This document shows, piece after piece, positions 6,850 to 31,941 of a DNA stretch of 64,000 nucleotides; positions within the stretch are counted from its first letter, which is position 1; each line of letters begins with the position of its first letter. The notes under the pieces were generated by a model that saw nothing but the letters and a program-made list of their open reading frames with translations, made no database searches and was not told where the DNA came from. The stretch is from positions 18,024 to 82,023 of the forward strand of contig CASBQF010000272.1 of the NCBI GenBank assembly GCA_949127775.1, read 5' to 3'. The DNA is from Oscillatoriales cyanobacterium PMM_0080 (GTDB lineage Bacteria; Cyanobacteriota; Cyanobacteriia; Cyanobacteriales; Microcoleaceae). A program made the position numbers and the translations under genes.

Positions 6850-8100
6850 ATGAACGTTTTGTTGGTCAGTAATTATGATGTTCAAGGTGGTGCTGCGAGG
6901 GCGACTTATCGCTTGCACAAGGGTTTGCAAGGTATTGGAGTAAATTCGGAAATTTTGGCTGGCTATAAGTCTAGTAATGATGAAACTGTACGGTTGATGC
7001 CGACCAAATTAGGGGAAAATTTTAAGAGTATCAGACCTAAATTAAATAGACTACCGTTAAAACTATATCCAAAACTAGGTCAGGTGATTTTTTCGCCGCA
7101 ATGGGTTCCTGATTCCCTAGCATTGGAAGTTGCCAAAATTAATCCTGATGTAATTAATTTGCATTGGGTTTGTGAAGGTTATATGCAGATTGAAACTTTG
7201 GCTAAGTTTAATAAGCCGATTGTTTGGACGCTACACGATATGTGGGCGTTTACGGGTGGATGTCATTACAGCGAAAGTTGCGATCGATATCTTGATGCTT
7301 GTGGTGCTTGTCCGCAACTTCACAGCACTAAAGATGCTGATATTTCTCGTTGGATTTGGCAGCGAAAAGCTGATGCTTGGCAGAATTTGGATCTGACTTT
7401 GGTAACTCCGAGTAATTGGTTGGCTGAATGCGCGAAATCTAGTTCTTTGTTGGCAAAATATCCAGTTAAAGTGATTGCTAATGGGCTAGATGCTGATGTT
7501 TATAAGCCGCTGAACCGATCGCAAGTGAGGGATAGTTTGAATTTGCCTCAACATAAACAATTGGTGTTGTTTGGGGCGATGCAGGGTACGGAGGATCGCT
7601 GGAAGGGTTTTCCGTTGCTGGTTCCGGCTTTGCAAAGTTTGAGTCAGTCGGGATGGCAGGATAGGATTGAACTTGTGGTTTTTGGGTCTTCTGAGCCGGA
7701 AAATGCGATCGATGTTGGCTTCAAAATTCATTATCTGGGTAGGTTGGAAGATGAAATTTTGGCAAAAGTTTATGCGGCGGCGGATGTGATGGTTGTACCG
7801 TCGCGCTATGAAGCTTTTGGGCAGACGGCATCGGAAGCGCTGGCTTGTGGTACGCCTGTTGTGGCTTTTGATGTGACGGGATTAAAAGATATTGTCGATC
7901 GCCACGAAAACGGTTATTTAGCTCAACCCTATGATAGCGAAGATTTGGCGCGAGGTATTACTTGGGTTTTAGAAGATGCCCAGCGACACGAAAAGCTTTG
8001 TCATAATGCTCGGATGAAAGTTGAGGCAAAGTTTACATTAGCAGTGCAAGCTCGCGAGTATCAAAAACTTTATCAAGAAGTTTGTCAAGCAGCTAAGTAA
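6850..8100 (+). CDS. Glycosyltransferase family 4 (GT-B)
   Basis: ORF track starts at 6754 inside the MITE; likely start MNVLLVSNYDVQGGAARATYRLHKGL at 6850; 'PSRYEAFGQTASEALACGTPVVAFD' GT4 signature. Confidence 0.88.
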   Translation: MNVLLVSNYDVQGGAARATYRLHKGLQGIGVNSEILAGYKSSNDETVRLMPTKLGENFKSIRPKLNRLPLKLYPKLGQVIFSPQWVPDSLALEVAKINPDVINLHWVCEGYMQIETLAKFNKPIVWTLHDMWAFTGGCHYSESCDRYLDACGACPQLHSTKDADISRWIWQRKADAWQNLDLTLVTPSNWLAECAKSSSLLAKYPVKVIANGLDADVYKPLNRSQVRDSLNLPQHKQLVLFGAMQGTEDRWKGFPLLVPALQSLSQSGWQDRIELVVFGSSEPENAIDVGFKIHYLGRLEDEILAKVYAAADVMVVPSRYEAFGQTASEALACGTPVVAFDVTGLKDIVDRHENGYLAQPYDSEDLARGITWVLEDAQRHEKLCHNARMKVEAKFTLAVQAREYQKLYQEVCQAAK

Positions 8101-8304
8101 ATATACTGGAAAAACTCAAGACTTAGGTACTCAATCTTTTAAATAAGTCGGGTATGTAGAGGCTGCTCAAATGATAAACTTTCTTTTCAATTTGTTGATA
8201 ATGTGGCAAATTAAGTTAATAATTGTATTGCGATTGTAGGCGATCGGCATGGGCGATCGCACGTGAGACAGTTGATTATTGCAAACAGCCAATTTTTAAT
8301 ATAG

Positions 8305-9213
8305 ATGAAGCAGACAAGTATAGCAGTCCTGATGACTTGCCACAACCGCAAGTCAAAGACTTTGGCCACTCTAGAGTCGCTGTTTCAGCAAAGATCGATC
8401 GATGAAATTGGACATAAAGTTTATCTAGTAGATGATGGGAGCACTGATGGCACTCGTCAAGCAGTACAGCAAACATATCCTGATGTCAAGATTTTTTCTG
8501 GGGATGGCAATTTATTTTGGAATGGAGGAATGCGTATCGCTTTTAGTGAGGCAATCAAAGACGATCCAGACTATTATCTGTGGTTGAATGACGATACGAT
8601 ACTTTATCCAGAAGCTTTAAGTTCGTTGTTAACAACCAGCCGTCAGTTATTTGAACAAGGAGCAGAAAAGGCGATCGTTGCCGGTTCAACTTGCGATCCC
8701 GATACTGGTGCTTTTACTTACGGCGGTATAGTTAAAATTACTCCGTTATTGCCCTTTAAATTTCGGTTTCTCGATCCTACAGAAGCACCTCAATCTTGTG
8801 ACAGCATGAATGGTAACTGCGTACTAATTCCTCGCAGGGTTGTTGAACTTGTTGGCAATCTCGATCCAGCCTTTATTCATTATTTATCGGATTGGGAATA
8901 CGGGCTGCGTGCTCGACAAAAAGGCTGCACAGTCTGGATAGCTCCCGGCTATCAAGGAACTTGTTCGGCCAATCCCCAAGCTACAAAAGTGGCTGCTGCT
9001 AGCATGAGTGAAGGCTTAGAAAAAATGAACCAACCGAAAGGCTTAACTTTTCAAGATGCTACTCTTCAACCGTGGGAAGAATGGAAAGTATTTGCTCAGC
9101 GTCACGGTGGTTTATTCTGGCCAATTTATTGGTTGCTACCTTACAGAAGGTTAGTTTGGTTTTCAGTTTTGAGCAAGCTGGGATTAACTAAAAACAAAAC
9201 TGAAGGTAAATAG
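8305..9213 (+). CDS. Glycosyltransferase family 2
   Basis: 'VLMTCHNRKSKTLATLESL', 'VDDGSTDGT', 'LWLNDDTI'. Confidence 0.88.
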   Translation: MKQTSIAVLMTCHNRKSKTLATLESLFQQRSIDEIGHKVYLVDDGSTDGTRQAVQQTYPDVKIFSGDGNLFWNGGMRIAFSEAIKDDPDYYLWLNDDTILYPEALSSLLTTSRQLFEQGAEKAIVAGSTCDPDTGAFTYGGIVKITPLLPFKFRFLDPTEAPQSCDSMNGNCVLIPRRVVELVGNLDPAFIHYLSDWEYGLRARQKGCTVWIAPGYQGTCSANPQATKVAAASMSEGLEKMNQPKGLTFQDATLQPWEEWKVFAQRHGGLFWPIYWLLPYRRLVWFSVLSKLGLTKNKTEGK

Positions 9214-9214
9214 G

Positions 9215-10375
9215 ATGGTAAATCGAAGTGATTTGCGTGTGGCTTGGCTGGTTCCAGAAGTAGAATTGGGTGCATATTGGCAGCCTGTATTGAGAGAGTT
9301 TACAAAAGTATTTAAGAATACTGTATTTTATACTGGTCGCGTTTGGTCTGGGTTCGATCCGATGCTACCGGGAGCATCAGCAATTCAGTTGGTAGGCGAG
9401 ACGAAGTTTGTTGAGACGACGAAGATCGAAACAGGGTACGATCGCGGTTTCATCGCAGTATCGCCCAGTATCATCGGTCATTTGCTAAAATTTAGACCTC
9501 AGATCGTTTTTCCTCAAGCTTTTTCTCTGTGGACTGTCTTGGTAGTGCTGCTAAAACCTCTCTGTGGCTGGAAAATTGCAATTATTTATGATGGTAGTTC
9601 CCCGAATACGGATTTTCGAGATTCTGGTTTTCGGACATTTGTCAGACGCATATTAGCTAAGTTTGCTGATGCTTTTGTTTCTAACAGCCAAGCCGGAAAA
9701 AGATATCTGGTAGAAGCGCTGAATGTACCGGAAGCGGCAGTTTTTACTAGAACTTATTTGGTTCCTGATGCGGAAACGCTACTGAAACCTTTGTCAGTCA
9801 ATAAGCTGGAAAATTTAGGGCTGAAGCAGCCAATTTTTTTGTATGTGGGGCGGATTACAGCTAGAAAAGGAATTAAGACGCTGTTAGAAGCTTGTGCGAT
9901 TCTCAAAAAGCAAGGATATTCTGATTATACTTTATTAATTGTTGGTAAGGGCGACCAGCAGGAGGAGTTGGAAAGTTTTATTAAGGAGCAAGATTTTCCT
10001 GAGCAAGTAAACTGGGTGGGATGGGTTGATTATGGCAGTTTGGGTACTTATTTTGAGCAAGCTGATATTTTTGTATTTCCGACTTTTGAGGATGTCTGGG
10101 GAATGGTTGTGCCGGAAGCTATGGTGTTTGGAAAACCGATATTGTGTTCTAATGGTGCTGCTTCCTGCGAGTTAGTTGTGGAAGGTGAAAATGGTTATAT
10201 TTTCGATCCTAGCAATGCTCAGGAGTTGTCGGAAAAAATGCGGATTTTTATAGATAATCCTGATTTGATTGAATCGATGGGGGAGAGTTCACGACAGCTC
10301 ATTTCTCAAAAGACTCCTGAAACAGCAGCTAAGGCTTATGTTGAAGTTACATCTTTTTTGATGGGGAAGAGATGA
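9215..10375 (+). CDS. Glycosyltransferase family 4
   Basis: 'LYVGRITARKGIKTLLEAC', 'FPTFEDVWGMVVPEAMVFGKPILCS'. Confidence 0.88.
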   Translation: MVNRSDLRVAWLVPEVELGAYWQPVLREFTKVFKNTVFYTGRVWSGFDPMLPGASAIQLVGETKFVETTKIETGYDRGFIAVSPSIIGHLLKFRPQIVFPQAFSLWTVLVVLLKPLCGWKIAIIYDGSSPNTDFRDSGFRTFVRRILAKFADAFVSNSQAGKRYLVEALNVPEAAVFTRTYLVPDAETLLKPLSVNKLENLGLKQPIFLYVGRITARKGIKTLLEACAILKKQGYSDYTLLIVGKGDQQEELESFIKEQDFPEQVNWVGWVDYGSLGTYFEQADIFVFPTFEDVWGMVVPEAMVFGKPILCSNGAASCELVVEGENGYIFDPSNAQELSEKMRIFIDNPDLIESMGESSRQLISQKTPETAAKAYVEVTSFLMGKR

Positions 10376-21158: not shown

Positions 21159-21300
21159 AACTTATACACTTTTCCGGTTCATCCGTAACTGTTTAACCAG
21201 ATTTATTGATTTTGTAACAAAAGTTCAAGTTTCGCATCCGGTAAAGTTGTTATATTTGGGTTGCAAAAACAATTTTGAAGCGGGCGCATTCTCAAACATT

Positions 21301-23181
21301 ATGTCGCGTTACCCAAGCATAGATAGCGTTATTAGCCTCCAACAGGCACTAGAAGGAATAATTGTTGACGATTTAAAAAAGCTCAAAGCATTATTACCCG
21401 ATCCTCGTAAATTAATCCGTAAAGCGGATCTGGTTGATGGAATTAGATCGCAATTGCTGGGAGAGAATCTTCGGAATGTGTGGGCGAAGTTAGACGATCT
21501 CCAAAAAGCGGCTGTAGCTGAAGTTATACATGGGGAGGATGGCTATTATTTTCCTGATATATTTAGCGCTAAATACGGAGAGCCAGCAGATTTTGGAACA
21601 AGCGATCGCTATGGAATCAACAAAGAACCATCTCTGCTATGCTTGTTTATCTACGGCAGACAAATTCCTTACGATCTAGAAAAAGAGTTGGTGAAATTTG
21701 TCCCAAAGCCTAAAGAAGCCACGTTAGATAATGCTGGTGAAACAATAAAAAATCATGTGAAACTCACCGTCCAAAGATTTAACTATAGTACACGGGAAAA
21801 AGAGATAGAAGAATACGATATTCCCTTGGCTTCTTATGAAACACAGTTAGCGGCTACAAAGGATTTTGCAGCGGTTTTGCGTCTGATTCAGTCGGGTAAA
21901 ATTGCTGTTAGCGATAAGACTTCTTTACCTACTGCTGGAAGTGTAAAGGCGATCGCCTCTATATTACAAGGTGGTGATTTTTATAATGAGGAACAGCGTC
22001 AAATTGCCCTAGCCAAGGATAGCGACTATGATGATGAAGTATTCGCTGAAGTCGGTAGCATCAAGCCCTTTGCTTGGATAATGATAGCGCAAGGGAGCAA
22101 GTTCGCGGAACGATCGGGCAAAAAGCTAGTTTTGACGAAAGCGGGAGTGAAAGCTTTGCAAGAATCACCCGCCAAAGGTTTACAGACAGCATGGAAACGC
22201 TGGTTAAAGACCAAAATCTTTGATGAATTTCGCCGCATTGATCCGATCAAAGGACAAACTGGGAAGGGCGCAAGTGGCATGACGGATGTGCCGTGGCGGA
22301 GAGATGCGATCGCCTCTGTGCTCGCAGAATGTCCTGTGGGTAAGTGGATTATGTTTCATGATTTTAGTAGATATCTAGTCGCAACAGGCCATAGATTTGA
22401 TGTGACTGAGGAACCTTACTATCTGTATGTTGGTGAACCTGGGTATGGAAACTTATCAGAATTGGGTGGCTACAGTTGGACGATTCTGGAAGAACGATAT
22501 ATGCGGTGTTTTTTGTTTGAGTATGCTGCGACTCTGGGAATCATTGATGTTGCATATGTCGATCCTGCGATCATACCAAGCGATTATGACAATCTTTCGG
22601 GAGACGACTATCTCGAATTCCTGAGTCGTTATGATGGCTTAGTATATTTTCGCTTGACGACTTTGGGGGCTTACTGTTTGGAGTTGACGGATAAGTATAC
22701 TCCGCCAGTAATTGAGATCCGTCAAACGCTCAGGATATTACCGAATTTAGAAATTATTGCGGCGGGAGATGGTGTCGAGACATCTGATGCGATCGTCCTG
22801 GATATCTATACTAAGAAAGTATCGGATGTTGTGTGGCGGCTCGATCGCCCAAAAATCTTCGCAGCCATTGAAAACGGATATCTATTAACAGAGTTTACAG
22901 AGTTTTTGGATGCCAGGAGTATCGAAGCGCTACCACAAACTGTGCAACAATTTCTGACGGATGTGACAGAGCGATCGCATAGCGTGCAAGATATAGGTAG
23001 TGTCAGGTTGATCGAATGTACTACTGCCCATTTAGCATTGCTGATTGCGAATGATTCCCGTACTAAAAAGTTTTGTCAGTTGGCGGGCGATCGCACTTTA
23101 GCCGTTCCATTGGGCCAGGAAACGAAATTTCGCACCGCATTGCGGCAAATGGGTTATGTTTTACCCCAGAGTGATAAATAA
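21301..23181 (+). CDS. XPB/Ssl2-type helicase-associated N-terminal domain protein
   Basis: Intact ORF 21247-23181, probable start MSRYPSIDSVISLQQAL at 21301; resembles helicase-associated N-terminal regions of bacterial XPB; partner of the next gene. Confidence 0.55.
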   Translation: MSRYPSIDSVISLQQALEGIIVDDLKKLKALLPDPRKLIRKADLVDGIRSQLLGENLRNVWAKLDDLQKAAVAEVIHGEDGYYFPDIFSAKYGEPADFGTSDRYGINKEPSLLCLFIYGRQIPYDLEKELVKFVPKPKEATLDNAGETIKNHVKLTVQRFNYSTREKEIEEYDIPLASYETQLAATKDFAAVLRLIQSGKIAVSDKTSLPTAGSVKAIASILQGGDFYNEEQRQIALAKDSDYDDEVFAEVGSIKPFAWIMIAQGSKFAERSGKKLVLTKAGVKALQESPAKGLQTAWKRWLKTKIFDEFRRIDPIKGQTGKGASGMTDVPWRRDAIASVLAECPVGKWIMFHDFSRYLVATGHRFDVTEEPYYLYVGEPGYGNLSELGGYSWTILEERYMRCFLFEYAATLGIIDVAYVDPAIIPSDYDNLSGDDYLEFLSRYDGLVYFRLTTLGAYCLELTDKYTPPVIEIRQTLRILPNLEIIAAGDGVETSDAIVLDIYTKKVSDVVWRLDRPKIFAAIENGYLLTEFTEFLDARSIEALPQTVQQFLTDVTERSHSVQDIGSVRLIECTTAHLALLIANDSRTKKFCQLAGDRTLAVPLGQETKFRTALRQMGYVLPQSDK

Positions 23182-23198
23182 TACACCTGATACTATTA

Positions 23199-23316
23199 GT
23201 GTCAACAATCTCCCGAAAACCTTTGTATCTCTCGTTTATAGCTGAGGCCAGATCCCCCTAAATCCCCCTTAAGAAGGGGGACTTTGAGAAGAATCTTGTC
23301 CCCCTCTTCTTAAGCA
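23199..23316. mobile_element. Degenerate/partial MITE-like copy
   Basis: 'attagtgtcaac...gaggccagatccccctaaatcccccttaagaagggggactttgagaagaatcttgtccccctcttcttaag', related to the 59683-59880 element. Confidence 0.55.
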
Positions 23317-23445
23317 GTATTTGTAGAGTGCGTCGCTGGCGATAAATCCCTCAAAAAGATATACAATCTCAATCGCGACGCACCTTTGACATAGACTAGA
23401 TAAAATAAACCAAACATTTCTTTTCTACCAAACTTCTTCCTTCTG

Positions 23446-23479
23446 TCAACTGTCAACTGTCAACTGTCAACTGTCAACT
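23446..23479. repeat. (GTCAACT)n heptamer array
   Basis: 'ctgtcaactgtcaactgtcaactgtcaactgtcaact' abutting the ATG at 23480. Confidence 0.9.
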
Positions 23480-25168
23480 ATGAGTTATGTTGCTGAAAAT
23501 GCTTTAATCGTGCAAAGCGATCGATCGATCTTACTAGAAGTTCACGCCCCGACAGCGCAATTAGCACGAGAAGCGATCGCACCTTTTGCCGAATTAATCA
23601 AAAGTCCCGAACACATCCACACCTATCGGATCACGCCTTTAAGCGTGTGGAATGCGCGGGCGGCGGGAATGTTAGTTGAATTGATGATCGCAGCTTTGCG
23701 AAAGTACGCCAAATATGACATTCCAGAGTCGGTAGCGCAGGAAATTGCACTGCTTGGTACGCGCTACGGATTGACGGTAATTGAAAGGATTGATGCGGAA
23801 AATACCGATTTACAACTGCGGATTGCCGATCGCCCGCTGACGGAGTTGCTAGTGCGGGATGAGCGCGTAAAACCGTTGTTAGGTAAGCGGATTTCGGATC
23901 TTTGCTTTCAAGTTGATGCGGGGAATCGCGGTGTACTCAAACAAGCTTTGTTAGCTGTGGGTTATCCGGCGGAAGATTTAGCTGGATATGTGGAAGGTGC
24001 CCAGTTGACGATTGCGTTGCGCGATCGCACTTTAGGAAGCGACTCACCCTTCAATTTGCGCGCCTATCAAAAGGAAGCAGTAGAAGCATTTTATCAAAGC
24101 GGAGAGGTTAGAGGTGGTAGTGGGACGATCGTCCTACCATGCGGGGCTGGTAAGACGATTGTGGGGATGATTGCGATGAGTTTGGTGCAGCAAAAGACAC
24201 TGATTCTCACCAGCAGTTTGACTTCGGTGCACCAGTGGCGTAGAGAAATATTGGACAAGACGAGTTTAACTGAAGATGCGATCGCCGAGTACAGCAGCAA
24301 CAGCAAAAAAACGGCTTCTGTAACTCTCTCGACTTACCAAATGCTCAGTTATCGATCGACTAAAGATGATGAATTCCCGCATTTCGAGTTATTTAACGCG
24401 CAATCCTGGGGACTGATTATTTACGATGAAGTGCATCTATTACCTGCACCGATATTTAGGATTACCGCCGACTTACAAGCGCGACGCAGGTTAGGTTTGA
24501 CGGCGACATTGATTCGCGAAGATGGGAAGGAAGGCGATGTTTTCACGCTAATTGGCCCGAAGCGCTATGACGTACCTTGGCGGGAATTGGAAGGACAGGG
24601 ATTTATTGCTACTGCTAATTGTACGGAAATCCGCGTCGCCCAAAATGAGGCGGAAAAAATGGAATATGCCCTAGCGCCCCGTCGCCAACAGTTTCGGATT
24701 GCTGCGGAAAATCCGGGTAAGTTGGATGTGGTACAAAGTTTGTTGCAAAAGGAAGCGGGGCGTCGTATTCTAATTATTGGTGAGTTTTTGGAACAGTTGG
24801 ATGCGATCGCCCTAGTTACCCAATTGCCGCTGATTACGGGGAAGACAAAACAGGCTGAGCGCGATCGGCTTTACGAAGCATTTCGTCACAAAGAGATTCC
24901 GGGATTAATTCTATCTCGCGTAGGCAACTTTGCCGTCGATTTACCCGATGCCGATGTGTTGATTCAAGTATCAGGTAAATATGGTTCTCGCCAAGAAGAA
25001 GCGCAGCGCCTCGGACGAATTCTGCGGCCGAAATCTGATGGACATACTGCGAGTTTTTATACATTAGTCTCGCTACAAACTTGCGAGGAGGATTTTGCCC
25101 GACACCGCCAACTGTTTTTGACTGAACAGGGATATAATTATACGATTGAGGTTCAAGGCGATGGTTAG
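23480..25168 (+). CDS. XPB-family SF2 DNA helicase
   Basis: 'GGSGTIVLPCGAGKTIVGMIAM' Walker A, 'LIIYDEVHLLPAPIFR' DEVH box, 'RLGLTATLIREDGKE', 'RQEEAQRLGRILRPK' motif VI. Confidence 0.9.
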   Translation: MSYVAENALIVQSDRSILLEVHAPTAQLAREAIAPFAELIKSPEHIHTYRITPLSVWNARAAGMLVELMIAALRKYAKYDIPESVAQEIALLGTRYGLTVIERIDAENTDLQLRIADRPLTELLVRDERVKPLLGKRISDLCFQVDAGNRGVLKQALLAVGYPAEDLAGYVEGAQLTIALRDRTLGSDSPFNLRAYQKEAVEAFYQSGEVRGGSGTIVLPCGAGKTIVGMIAMSLVQQKTLILTSSLTSVHQWRREILDKTSLTEDAIAEYSSNSKKTASVTLSTYQMLSYRSTKDDEFPHFELFNAQSWGLIIYDEVHLLPAPIFRITADLQARRRLGLTATLIREDGKEGDVFTLIGPKRYDVPWRELEGQGFIATANCTEIRVAQNEAEKMEYALAPRRQQFRIAAENPGKLDVVQSLLQKEAGRRILIIGEFLEQLDAIALVTQLPLITGKTKQAERDRLYEAFRHKEIPGLILSRVGNFAVDLPDADVLIQVSGKYGSRQEEAQRLGRILRPKSDGHTASFYTLVSLQTCEEDFARHRQLFLTEQGYNYTIEVQGDG

Positions 25169-25323
25169 TCGGCGTTGCGTATTCGTGTTTTTTCTGATTT
25201 GAATGGCTGTACTTTTTTGGAATATGGGAAAAGGGCGATCGCAAGAAGTTGCAGGCAATATTGTCTCACATAAAAGTTAAACATTTGTTGCTAACGAATG
25301 TAACTCCAAGAATCTGCTATGAC

Positions 25324-25812
25324 TCAATTAAACAAAAATGGCTTAACAGATAAAATCATTCGATCTAACTCAGTTTTATTATGCCTGAGAAGATGGTGTC
25401 CCCATAATTCATTCGTGTTGTTAGAGCAATCTTTCGCAAGAGTTTCTCCGATACATTCAAAATTATTTCCAAGATTGCTCCTTAACTTCTCTGGTTCAGA
25501 TAATACCCCTAGCACAAATACTCTATTTTCTAAATCATCGGGAATCTGCTTCTTTACATAACTAAACCTATCTTCGTAACTTTCATCAAAATCAATAAGC
25601 AAGACAATCATTCTTTTTGAAAATTTTCGCATTTCAGAGATATGATTTTCTTTGAACTTATCCACAACTTTCCCCCAACCATCAGCAATCGGCAAAACTT
25701 GAATAACAGGTTCATTAATGTTTGAGTTGAGAATGAATCCGTTGGCGATTTGGCGATTAGCATCATCTTCTGGCAACACAAGAAGATGGTGTTGATACTT
25801 ATTCACTCTCAT
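25324..25812 (-). CDS. Small Toprim-like protein
   Basis: 'LLVLPEDDANRQIANGF' (acidic motif) and 'KRMIVLLIDFDESYEDR' (DxD), ordered as in a Toprim fold; overlaps the upstream ATPase ORF by 4 bp. Confidence 0.55.
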   Translation of the reverse strand: MRVNKYQHHLLVLPEDDANRQIANGFILNSNINEPVIQVLPIADGWGKVVDKFKENHISEMRKFSKRMIVLLIDFDESYEDRFSYVKKQIPDDLENRVFVLGVLSEPEKLRSNLGNNFECIGETLAKDCSNNTNELWGHHLLRHNKTELDRMILSVKPFLFN

Positions 25813-26933
25813 AATTCTATGTCGCCACGAATCAAAGTATCTACAAGATCGCCACTGATAGGTAAATCGTCCAGCAACCTAACTAAGGTTGGCTCTAGGT
25901 GACTTTTGCGATCGAGTACAAAGGTGTTTTCATTTGAAAATTTTCGGATTACTTCCTCATTATGCGAGGTCACTACAATCTGACCATTATCCTTAAATGA
26001 TCGTCGTAGCGACGTAACAAAATGCCCAACTTCTGACAGGGAAAGATAGTTATCAGGTTCATCCCAAAAGCAAAAAAGTGGCCCATAGTATTTGTTGGCA
26101 GCCAAGACAACAGCACAAAGAAAAAAGCATTTCTCTCCATCAGATAAGTCTTTAAAGTCAACACTCAGATTCGCACTCTTTGCTTCAAACCGAACAACCA
26201 TACTTTTAGAGTCTTTACCAATTTGTTCATTCAGAAAATCCTGAATGTCAGGCATAACTTCTCGGAGGTATCTGTCAGTCTGTGTATAAGCAGCAGGGTA
26301 GCGACTGAGTAAACCAGAAAACCACTCTCCAAAATTTGAACCGTCTCTTTTTGGCTCCAAAGTTTCCCCGGTAGATTCTCCAGTCATCCAACTTGGAATC
26401 GGAGCTAAAATAATCATGCTTGCCAGCCAACTCTTGAAAATACGCAGCGGATCGTTTGCTGATTGCGCCTGAATAATAGGAAGGGCAATGAGATGCCAAT
26501 CTACTAAAAACTGAGCTTCCGAATTTTTGGGACTGGTGTAAAGAGTGACTTGGGCTTCCTTGCGAGAGTAGATAGGATTTCCTGCAATTAACAATTGCTC
26601 TTCAAAAACTCGAAGTTCTCTGAAGTTTTCTGGTAATTCCAATGCCAGGATATATTTGTATAGTTTTTTGTCCAGTAATACTTCTATCTCAAATCGAATT
26701 GGAACATCAGATATTCCTCGATTAAAATCTTTTGGCCCAATCAGACCCTTGTCCTCAAGGTCACGCATTCTATTGATGCCTCGACCCGCGCTTTGAAGCA
26801 CTTCCAATGCAGAGGCAATGGTCGATTTGCCAGCACCGTTTTTTCCAATTAAAAGGGAGGATGACATCTCTTTGAGAATCAATTCAAAGTTCTCTAGGCA
26901 TCTGAAGTTATGTACGTATAGTCTTTGGAGCAT
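25809..26933 (-). CDS. AAA/ABC-type ATPase (OLD/RecF-like)
   Basis: 'LLIGKNGAGKSTIASALEVL' Walker A, 'LSDGEKCFFLCAVVLA' signature, 'LFCFWDEPDNYLSLSE' Walker B, 'QIVVTSHNEEVI' H-loop. Confidence 0.9.
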   Translation of the reverse strand: MLQRLYVHNFRCLENFELILKEMSSSLLIGKNGAGKSTIASALEVLQSAGRGINRMRDLEDKGLIGPKDFNRGISDVPIRFEIEVLLDKKLYKYILALELPENFRELRVFEEQLLIAGNPIYSRKEAQVTLYTSPKNSEAQFLVDWHLIALPIIQAQSANDPLRIFKSWLASMIILAPIPSWMTGESTGETLEPKRDGSNFGEWFSGLLSRYPAAYTQTDRYLREVMPDIQDFLNEQIGKDSKSMVVRFEAKSANLSVDFKDLSDGEKCFFLCAVVLAANKYYGPLFCFWDEPDNYLSLSEVGHFVTSLRRSFKDNGQIVVTSHNEEVIRKFSNENTFVLDRKSHLEPTLVRLLDDLPISGDLVDTLIRGDIEL

Positions 26934-27244
26934 AGAAAAACGACTCCGACGAATTAAAATGAAAAACGAGCAGCTTAGTTAACCAACACTTGTAACCGAA
27001 GCCAGCTAACCTATAATTGTGTTGTAGATGCGGTAGTACAATACATTATATAACTACAAAATACCTCAAGTTGCTCATGTATGTCAACCCTTTCTTGCTT
27101 CCCGTTAGACTTTCCTTTTCTTGATCAAGCTTTATGCTGTTCTTTCCTAATTAAGCACTTTCAAAAACCGATTTTTCAGCTAGCCGTTCAGCGAAATAAA
27201 ATCAACTTATTAGTTTACGAACCAAGTCAAGAGGTGATTCTCCA

Positions 27245-27841
27245 ATGGATAACTCACTAACCTATGCAGACATTCTCAAAAAAACCCTGCGAGAAGCAAC
27301 TCGCGCCCAACCCAGTTTACAGCCGATCGAGCTTTACCCCGTCTGTGATGTCGATTCGGGTCACTTTCTGATTCTCGCGACAGGCTGGGATAAACAGCGC
27401 TGGATTGACACGATTCTGTTTCATGCTCGTGAATGTCGATCGTCAAGTGGTAATTGAAGAGGATAACTTCGAGGAAGATCTAAGCCAATCACTGATTGAG
27501 GCTGGTATCAAAGCAGAGCATATCGTGACTAGCTCTTTTCCTGAGAATAGCGATCGACAAAGAACGCATCAAACAGTGTAAAGCCCCTCGATCTACAGTT
27601 GTTATGGTGAAACAAAGCATCTGTCCTTTCAGCACTATGCAATATACATCATTAAAACGAGCGAATTGGAAGTCTACAGTTGGGTGAATACTCGCGATCG
27701 CCACCTAGAACCGATCGCCCTTACAACTCCCGTAGCCCATGCCCAACCACAATACTTAATAAAAACTTTACAAAACTTACCCGATCGCCCAACACGAGTT
27801 AGAGTTATCCTAGGAAATCCAGCAATCCTGTTACAGTAAAC
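27245..27841 (+). pseudogene. Broken xisI-like (element excision factor) gene region
   Basis: Frame 1 27245-27425 'YADILKKTLREA...VCDVDSGHFLILATGWDKQRWIDTILFHA', continuing in the +1 frame 'LVNVDRQVVIEEDNFEEDLSQSLIEAGIKAEHIV' to a TAA at 27579; the same frame is then open to about 27841 ('...YAIYIIKTSELEVYSWVNTRDRHLEPIAL...'). Confidence 0.6.
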
Positions 27842-27867: not shown

Positions 27868-29031
27868 ATGACTCACACCCAAAGCACCAAAACTACCGCC
27901 ACAACTGCAATTTATTCCTTGACAATTGCTCCCGCCTGTGTTTTGCGAGGTCGAAACGCCCTGGCACAAGCCGGAGATGCGATCGCCCGTTTCGGAAAAC
28001 GGCCCCTAATCGTCGGCGGTAGCAACTCCCTCGCCGCCGCCCAACCCTACCTGCAACCAATCCTCGAAGGCAGGGCGAGCACGGGGGCATCGCCCCTACA
28101 GTCCGCCCACACAGCCTACGGCAAAGATTGCAGCGAAATCAGCCTCGAAACCCTCCGCGAAGCCGTCCAAACCCATCAAGCCGACTTCATCATCGGCGTC
28201 GGCGGCGGCAAAGCCTTGGATGCAGCTAAACTCGTCGCCCATCAGTGCAAAATGGCGATCGTCACCATCCCCACATCAGCAGCCACCTGCGCCGCTTGGA
28301 CAGCCCTTTCTAACATTTATTCCGAACAAGGTGCGTTCCAATACGATGTCACATTAGCCAGATGTCCCGATTTGTTAATCCTGGACTACGGCTTAATTCA
28401 AACAGCACCCCAGCGGACATTAATAGCAGGAATCGGAGATGCGATCGCCAAATGGTACGAAGCATCAGTCAGCAGCGGACACTCCGAACAAACCATGATC
28501 ATTGCCGCCGTCCAACAAGCTAGAATTCTGCGCGATATTTTATTCCAAAAATCAGCCACCGCCCTCAAAGAACCCGGTAGCGAAACCTGGCAAGAAGTCA
28601 CAGATGCCGTCGTATTGCTAGCAGGAGTAATCGGCGGAATTGGCGGAGCTCAATGTCGCACCGTCGCCGCCCACGCCGTCCACAACGGCCTAACTCATCT
28701 ATTAGCAAGTCACGGCACATTGCACGGCGAAAAAGTCGCCTACGGCATTTTAGTGCAACTGCGCCTAGAAGAAATGCTGCAAAACAATCAACTCGCAGCC
28801 ACCGCCAGACAGCAACTACTAAAATTCTACGCCGAGATTGGATTGCCTAAAAATTTAGACAACTTAGGACTCGGAGACGTTAGCCTCACACAATTACAGC
28901 GCGCCGCCGAAATAGCTTGCAATCCCAATTCCGACATCCACAGACTGCCATTTAAAGTCGTTCCCGAACAATTAATGGCGGCGATGGTTTCTACCACCGC
29001 ACCTGTGGGAGAATTAAAGGTTAAGAGTTAA
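27868..29031 (+). CDS. Iron-containing alcohol/glycerol dehydrogenase family protein
   Basis: 'ADFIIGVGGGKALDAAKLVAHQ', 'VTIPTSAATCAAWTALSNIYSEQG', 'GTLHGEKVAYGILVQL'. Confidence 0.85.
   Translation: MTHTQSTKTTATTAIYSLTIAPACVLRGRNALAQAGDAIARFGKRPLIVGGSNSLAAAQPYLQPILEGRASTGASPLQSAHTAYGKDCSEISLETLREAVQTHQADFIIGVGGGKALDAAKLVAHQCKMAIVTIPTSAATCAAWTALSNIYSEQGAFQYDVTLARCPDLLILDYGLIQTAPQRTLIAGIGDAIAKWYEASVSSGHSEQTMIIAAVQQARILRDILFQKSATALKEPGSETWQEVTDAVVLLAGVIGGIGGAQCRTVAAHAVHNGLTHLLASHGTLHGEKVAYGILVQLRLEEMLQNNQLAATARQQLLKFYAEIGLPKNLDNLGLGDVSLTQLQRAAEIACNPNSDIHRLPFKVVPEQLMAAMVSTTAPVGELKVKS
28072..28100. repeat. Palindromic repeat inside the glycerol dehydrogenase-like ORF
   Basis: 'agggcgagcacgggggcatcgcccctaca' with arms AGGGCGA/TCGCCCCT, encoding GRASTGASPLQ in frame. 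Confidence 0.7.
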
Positions 29032-30792: not shown

Positions 30793-31941
30793 CTACAAGC
30801 TTTTAATTTGCTCGATTACCCAGCCAAAAGTTTCCATAACTTGCTTGAGGGCAGATTCTTCTTGCAAAGTAAACAAAGCGAGACTCGGCGACCTTCTTTC
30901 CCCAGGTTCTGTAGGTAGCGACAGACCGATCGAACTTAGCTTGTTTCTCAATTCCAGCCAATTTTGATCCGAATTAAATGGCGGCCGGGAACCGTAATTG
31001 TCAGCAGAAATCTCCATTCTGCCAGCAATATCTACAGTGAATAACTGATAGGGTTTTTTGCCCTTTTGAGGCAATTGGGCGGCGAAACCGCCGTAGGCGT
31101 CCCCTGTTCCCCACTGGATTTGAATTTCGGGCTCTTGACTTTTCGCCCAAAGGTAGATTTCTCTTGCCATTTGCGCCTCGTCTGCGCCTTGTCTAGCTTT
31201 GATTTCCGCAAAAAATGACGATTCATCCCAGCGCCTTCTTTCGCGCATTGCGTTGGATTTTTTCTGCTGTGCTTCGGCTGTCTGACCGATGACTCTGGGA
31301 ACCAATGTTTTTAAACCGTCTTCACTGACATATTGCTTAATTTCCAGGGCTAAAACTTCAACCGGGTCCATTTGTTCGTTGAGAAATTCGACAACTCGGC
31401 GCATTTCAGCGGAAATCTCGTCTGCTACAAATACTAGGCGAATTTTACCGGCTTGCAAATTGGTTTTAACTTTCTGCCAAAATAGGTCTTCATTAGCATC
31501 TGCACCGACAAACTCTTCAAAAATCTGTTCGGGATCTCGACCCCGATCGCGACAATTGGCTTCAAACAGAGCAATAATCGAATCTATTGGCCAATAAACT
31601 AACGCATTAGCAGCATAGTCGATCGACTGACCTAACACTTTTTGCCGAAGTGCAGCATTAGGAGTGCGCCTGACATCCACCAAAGTAGGAACTGCATTTT
31701 GGTCTACAAACAAGTGATTCAGCGACCACTGGACGGCAGTTTCTTCATCGCTGGGCACTGCTTCCCGTGAAATTAACAGCCACTTCCGCGCCGTCGCGCG
31801 ATCGATTTGATCTCCGGCGATCAGATTAGGATAAGTTACTAGCAATTCTTGTAACTGGTCTTCCGAGTCGTAGGGCTGTTCCATCATTTCTACCAGCCTG
31901 TCGTCGTCCTGAATCAGATAAATACCTCCAGCCATGCACAT
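30793..31941 (-). CDS. Hypothetical protein, possible PD-(D/E)XK nuclease-like
   Basis: 'PVEVLALEIKQYVSEDGLKTLVPRVIG' (E-I-K-like), 'YDSEDQLQELLVTYPNLIAGD'. Confidence 0.5.
   Translation of the reverse strand: MCMAGGIYLIQDDDRLVEMMEQPYDSEDQLQELLVTYPNLIAGDQIDRATARKWLLISREAVPSDEETAVQWSLNHLFVDQNAVPTLVDVRRTPNAALRQKVLGQSIDYAANALVYWPIDSIIALFEANCRDRGRDPEQIFEEFVGADANEDLFWQKVKTNLQAGKIRLVFVADEISAEMRRVVEFLNEQMDPVEVLALEIKQYVSEDGLKTLVPRVIGQTAEAQQKKSNAMRERRRWDESSFFAEIKARQGADEAQMAREIYLWAKSQEPEIQIQWGTGDAYGGFAAQLPQKGKKPYQLFTVDIAGRMEISADNYGSRPPFNSDQNWLELRNKLSSIGLSLPTEPGERRSPSLALFTLQEESALKQVMETFGWVIEQIKSL

Follow-up and report, generated by a model that had tools for sequence, protein, structure and literature searches.

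The window, a 64,000-nucleotide stretch of DNA from an Oscillatoriales cyanobacterium, carries on its minus strand a pair of overlapping genes, here called A and B. The original prediction had placed an ORF pair with a 4-bp overlap at this position, and our ORF check of the window agrees: the two reading frames share the 4 bp ATGA. The features of the locus are listed below.

25320 to 26986, minus strand: conserved module, delimited by DNA similarity to copies at another site in the genus
26934 to 26986, minus strand: leader upstream of gene A, which travels with the module
25809 to 26933, minus strand: gene A, first of the pair, 374 aa with an ATG start, ABC/SMC-type ATPase (AAA_21/AAA_15)
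26820 to 26846, minus strand: Walker A motif GKNGAGKST of A (residues 30-38); G30, N32, G33, G35 and K36 are invariant in 33 homologues
26130 to 26147, minus strand: ABC signature LSDGEK of A (residues 263-268), from the motif as read and 33 homologues
26058 to 26078, minus strand: Walker B motif LFCFWDE of A (residues 286-292), from the motif as read and 33 homologues
25959 to 25967, minus strand: H-loop SHN of A (residues 323-325), from the motif as read and 33 homologues
25324 to 25812, minus strand: gene B, second of the pair, 162 aa with an ATG start, predicted stand-alone Toprim-type protein
25765 to 25770, minus strand: E15-D16 of B at the end of beta-1, presumed Toprim glutamate; invariant in 59 homologues and placed by the AF2 model
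25585 to 25593, minus strand: D74-F-D76 of B at the end of beta-3, presumed Toprim DxD; from conservation and alignment to the DxD of a sister family

The block of similarity between the window and a site found in four genomes of the genus extends from 4 bp beyond the stop of B to about 53 bp upstream of A. Within the leader, a short element of the type CACTCCTCGGAnTCGTTTTnCTATG recurs among the cyanobacterial copies. Two 9-bp repeats GAAAAACGA (26935-26943 and 26961-26969) were set aside because the homologues have no conserved repeat pair. Inverted repeats and target duplications were looked for at the module ends and none was convincing.

Protein A matches the Pfam families AAA_21 (1.1e-16), AAA_15 and SMC_N. 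The Walker A, ABC-type signature, Walker B and H-loop that the original prediction had read from the sequence fall in columns that are invariant or nearly so among the 33 homologues. The AF2 model of A (pLDDT 89.2) has as its closest solved folds the Rad50/SMC heads and the PtuA and retron ATPases (Foldseek, E down to 7e-13), and the PADLOC profiles AbiLi, HEC-01A, mad3 and AriA match the A-type ATPase in all 33 homologues. The assignment of A as an SMC/Rad50/PtuA-type ABC ATPase is supported.

For protein B, a Toprim domain had been proposed on the basis of an acidic motif LPEDDANRQIANGF followed by LIDFD. Both are present; E15, D16 and D74 are invariant among the 59 homologues and D76 is kept in at least 90% of them. 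Toprim domains follow the order beta1-alpha1-beta2-alpha2-beta3-alpha3-beta4, with a glutamate after beta1 and a DxD after beta3. Structure prediction, which the original prediction had named as a check for both proteins, gave the Rad50/SMC/PtuA-like fold for A described above and the Toprim order for B: the AF2 model of B (pLDDT 92.7) runs b1 (9-14), a1, b2 (37-39), a2, b3 (67-75), a3 and b4 (98-104), then C-terminal helices, where E15 directly follows b1 and D74/D76 lie where b3 ends.

Searches with B gave no Pfam, NCBIfam or PHROGs family match, and the match of one B-family member to PF24395 (OLD-like_TOPRIM_1) was too weak for use (E 0.081). Foldseek comparison of the B model with PDB and BFVD returned nothing at E ≤ 0.001, the best PDB match being lumazine synthase (E 0.019), and direct hhalign comparison with the OLD Toprim was weak (P 4, E 0.0095) with the DxD in the right register. 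The Foldseek result, the weak direct comparison and the lack of a Pfam or NCBIfam match speak for a B without a Toprim fold; its acidic motifs would then have arisen by coincidence in a different alpha/beta fold, and the function of the pair would be some other ATPase-coupled one. However, the motif order and the predicted topology agree with Toprim, several Toprim proteins (topoisomerase, DnaG Toprim, primase/helicase and RloB-like proteins) are among the best 50 BFVD matches of B, none of them significant, and profile homology with controls speaks for Toprim as well. We therefore regard a non-Toprim B as very improbable.

The profile homology is transitive and runs through a sister family, in which the nearest ATPases outside the family of A are followed by a protein of 173-197 aa with the pattern CEDxxQ...LIDAD...RNIETW. 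Against this family, B aligned in hhalign over about 150 columns (P 93.9-94.5, E 0.8-1.6e-7), DxD to DxD, and the sister family in turn aligned with the OLD-family Toprim (P 92-94, E 1e-7 to 6e-7), while 36 unrelated control families stayed under P 5% and did not exceed P 1.8 when compared with the sister family. Because the link from B to the sister family to the OLD Toprim holds with the controls staying low, B is accepted, with some reserve at the level of the fold, as a divergent small stand-alone Toprim protein by its predicted topology, its acidic residues and this transitive homology, and the Toprim reading of the original prediction is thereby supported. The NIETW motif is a feature of the sister family and is absent from B. 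A sister pair is present in the window's own genome (locus L242, contig C394, gene pair at 8093-9818) and others occur in further cyanobacteria (L216, L218, L219, L222). The sister ATPase matches the PADLOC profile HEC-01A at 2e-26 and its small partner matches HEC-01B at up to 1.3e-6; the sister pair, an ATPase with a small Toprim-like protein, is weakly HEC-01-like.

A profile built from 20 members of the family of B was searched against one-genome-per-species data. It found 136 loci, of which 80 were fetched for analysis. In 79 of the 80, B is immediately preceded by A, and the remaining locus is cut off by a contig end; the 4-bp overlap is the same in most of the loci, and the two genes are separate ORFs throughout, with no A-B fusion among the 80. 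No other gene family is shared by more than 13 loci, therefore no third gene is constant in the pair. Distances of A and B correlate (r = 0.79), as expected of co-divergence, and the median dN/dS values within the genus (0.12 for A, 0.31 for B) indicate purifying selection on both genes with B evolving faster. A and B are thus confirmed as a real unit and are no chance neighbours.

The pair is spread across at least nine phyla, with hosts in Cyanobacteriota, Pseudomonadota, Thermodesulfobacteriota, Acidobacteriota, Chlorobiota, Calditrichota, Chloroflexota, Planctomycetota, Verrucomicrobiota and candidate division KSB1. Within the cyanobacterial phylum, a six-frame search of 386 genomes detected B in 28, about 26 of them credible; weak matches in two genomes of 1.6-1.7 Mb (G243 and G294) were treated as spurious. 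One copy of the pair lies on a large plasmid record, and phage or viral copies were looked for with none credible. In the genus the pair is present in 13 of 30 genomes and absent from 17, and it occupies three chromosomal sites, namely the window site, the four-genome site and an eight-genome site. On the tree of A and B together, the window pair groups with the copies of the four-genome site (support 98), and the copies of the eight-genome site stand apart, the separating branches being of moderate support (80-89). This separate placement suggests at least two acquisitions of the pair within the genus.

The pair is flanked in the window by an XPB helicase gene (23480-25168, NF045503), which is on the opposite strand to the pair, and by a gene at 27868 annotated by eye only as a dehydrogenase. 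XPB, its helicase-like neighbour and the dehydrogenase downstream are in the same places in related genomes without the pair there, and the helicase neighbours are ruled out as parts of the system since XPB and the dehydrogenase stay put in those relatives. The relatives within the genus have 3.8-5.2 kb of variable material between the XPB and dehydrogenase genes, and the interval corresponding to 25175-27503 holds toxin-antitoxin-like genes, transposases and a 705-aa protein (annotation by eye). The interval is a plastic spot in the genus, and because it holds other genes in the relatives, no clean empty site for the pair was found among them. An xisI gene at 27245-27592 appears frameshifted (Pfam XisI 5.8e-8 over the first 61 residues), and DNA similar to it occurs elsewhere in the window's genome and in the genus; it is ruled out as a part of the system because the similarity block of the module stops before it.

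The occupation of this interval by toxin-antitoxin-like genes and transposases in related genomes is one of several observations that would fit an ordinary toxin-antitoxin or addiction pair, with A as the antitoxin and B as a Toprim RNase toxin that has no phage-specific trigger. The gene order, antitoxin first with an overlap, agrees with it, and toxicity-neutralisation assays have confirmed pairs of an AAA antitoxin and a TOPRIM_OLD toxin (PMC10440598). However, at least four genomes have an intact B with A truncated or absent (L036, L248, L251, L254), where a free toxin should not persist unless B is inactive there. The reverse case, an intact A with B broken or absent (L025, L208, L233), is about equally frequent, and the broken copies show no bias of the toxin-antitoxin kind. 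We consider such a pair an unlikely explanation of the locus.

The original prediction had also drawn on the surroundings of the pair, that is the helicase genes and the broken xisI, as a sign of a defence system. This argument fails, because in 16 other cyanobacterial genomes the neighbours of the pair are housekeeping genes, and PADLOC matches near the pair (143 neighbours in the 16 genomes) showed no excess, control regions (145 proteins from the same genome set) having them no less often. The test is a modest one, with the best 25 families counted and three large control proteins left out, and on it a defence-island argument is ruled out.

Housekeeping neighbours together with a fold of A close to the Rad50/SMC heads would be in keeping with an accessory role in DNA repair or chromosome maintenance. 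The pair would then be an SMC/RecF-like ATPase with a Toprim partner and would resemble RecF-RecR, or Cran1, an archaeal ATPase of the OLD class. Eight genomes of the genus have long and stably kept the pair at a single site, which points the same way, and an OLD-class protein with a non-defence role is known, Cran1 acting in the cell cycle (PMC12796447). Maintenance genes of this kind are hard to reconcile with the absence of the pair from most relatives, including 17 of the 30 genomes of the genus, and with its presence at differing sites. The conserved catalytic-type acids of B would also argue for a nuclease over a structural RecR-like Toprim, and a maintenance role seems to us improbable.

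The pair was compared with the named systems that combine an ATPase with a second protein. The original prediction had likened it to an OLD/PARIS-like module; the split layout, ATPase then Toprim, is indeed PARIS- and AbiL-like, but the pair is no member of OLD, Gabija or PARIS. Family tests on B and the gene layout rule out direct membership in PARIS, RloB, OLD or HEC-01. The closest labelled kin, through the sister family, is the PADLOC candidate HEC-01 (HEC-01A and HEC-01B), for which a literature search found no biochemistry. It has the same kind of ATPase followed by a small protein, and A matches HEC-01A at E 5e-20 to 1e-19, with the AbiLi, mad3 and AriA profiles scoring alike. In contrast, B matches HEC-01B at just E 0.031 over 65 residues, in one of 20 members.

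PARIS likewise has an ABC ATPase gene first and a separate Toprim gene second, and its AriA profile matches A at 1.7e-17. B has no match to AriB/DUF4435 at E ≤ 10 in the profile search and hhalign gave P 0.4; DUF4435 proteins, which we take to be the AriB-like family, are mostly about 300 aa long as compared to 162 aa for B. In PARIS, AriA holds AriB, and phage anti-restriction proteins lead to the release of AriB and the cutting of tRNA (PMC12409363, PMC11455837). AbiL and RloA-RloB share the two-gene ATPase-Toprim layout, with AbiLi as the best PADLOC match of A (6e-21). However, B has no match to the RloB family (PF13707) in Pfam and P 0.3 in hhalign, and the RloB proteins compared here carry an FELW motif and have, for the most part, about 200-220 aa. 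The literature relates RloB to OLD_TOPRIM and describes AbiLii as an effector of abortive infection (PMC10440598).

OLD and Gabija (GajA) also combine an ABC ATPase with a Toprim, and B is linked to the OLD Toprim through the sister family. In OLD class 1 and Gabija these form one polypeptide as compared to two here, the family search gave no direct OLD-Toprim match of B, and the UvrD-like helicase GajB of Gabija is not adjacent, the neighbouring helicase of the window being XPB. Septu (PtuA-PtuB) and retron PtuA are near to A in the Foldseek comparison, but the partner there is the HNH nuclease PtuB in place of the Toprim-like B, and no HNH match was found. The pair thus resembles known virus-defence modules yet fits none of the named families, which makes it a candidate immunity module.

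We consider that the pair is most likely an ATPase sensor with a Toprim nuclease effector in phage defence, a reading that we hold to be probable. It is favoured by the near-obligate co-occurrence of A and B with no constant third gene, by their co-divergence under purifying selection with B faster than A, and by the patchy presence of the pair and its movement between chromosomal sites. The Toprim topology and acids predicted for B, the Rad50/SMC/PtuA-like fold and PADLOC matches of A, and the likewise pairing of the sister ATPases with a small Toprim-like protein add to this, as do the precedents: AAA and TOPRIM_OLD pairs, the RloB type included, which neutralise toxicity in vivo, and AbiLii (PMC10440598), as well as AriA/AriB (PMC12409363, PMC11455837). 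The defence reading is weakened by the housekeeping neighbours with no enrichment of defence genes, by the lack of credible phage or viral copies with one copy on a large plasmid record, by the weak direct comparison of B with the OLD Toprim and its lack of a Foldseek match at E ≤ 0.001, and by the eight genomes of the genus that keep the pair at one site, which resembles stable inheritance.

The defence role, the formation of a complex, nuclease activity, a trigger and a substrate are inferred. As a protein of the SMC/PtuA/AriA type, A would bind ATP, act as sensor or scaffold and hold on to B, which would be a minimal Toprim nuclease. Signals of infection would alter A and free B to cut nucleic acid, which may be host tRNA/RNA or DNA, and this cutting would halt phage growth, probably through shutdown of the cell. 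It is also possible, at somewhat below an even chance, that the pair represents a distinct two-gene immune family without a name, concentrated in filamentous cyanobacteria, lying outside defence islands and spread over at least nine phyla. With about 160 aa and no large extra domain, B would then rank among the smallest Toprim nucleases that stand alone, and it would have its own trigger and nucleic-acid target.

Bacterial immunity has repeatedly made use of modules of an ATPase plus a Toprim (OLD, Gabija, PARIS, AbiL), few of whose triggers and targets have been established, and the pair is a compact form of this design. Standard surveys would miss it, because Pfam, NCBIfam and PADLOC leave the effector unlabelled and the surroundings are housekeeping. 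If active, B may serve as a minimal effector for structural work and the pair as a defence candidate for filamentous bloom-forming cyanobacteria.

Some further observations were made in the window and its genome. At 21247-25168, a 644-aa protein with a Helicase_C_3-like segment adjoins the XPB repair helicase, and the two are adjacent in relatives too. A dispersed repeat of about 120 bp at 23195-23314, which shows neither an Rfam match nor an unusual RNA fold, has many copies elsewhere in the genome and across the genus. A 382-aa protein encoded at 30793-31941 on the minus strand has no Pfam match and matches the PADLOC single-gene candidate PDC-S11 (7.5e-13). The genome of the window (G000) has genes for two RloB proteins and one DUF4435 protein as well (C124:52595, C409:8974 and C384:5406), and several small Toprim-type families are present in it side by side.
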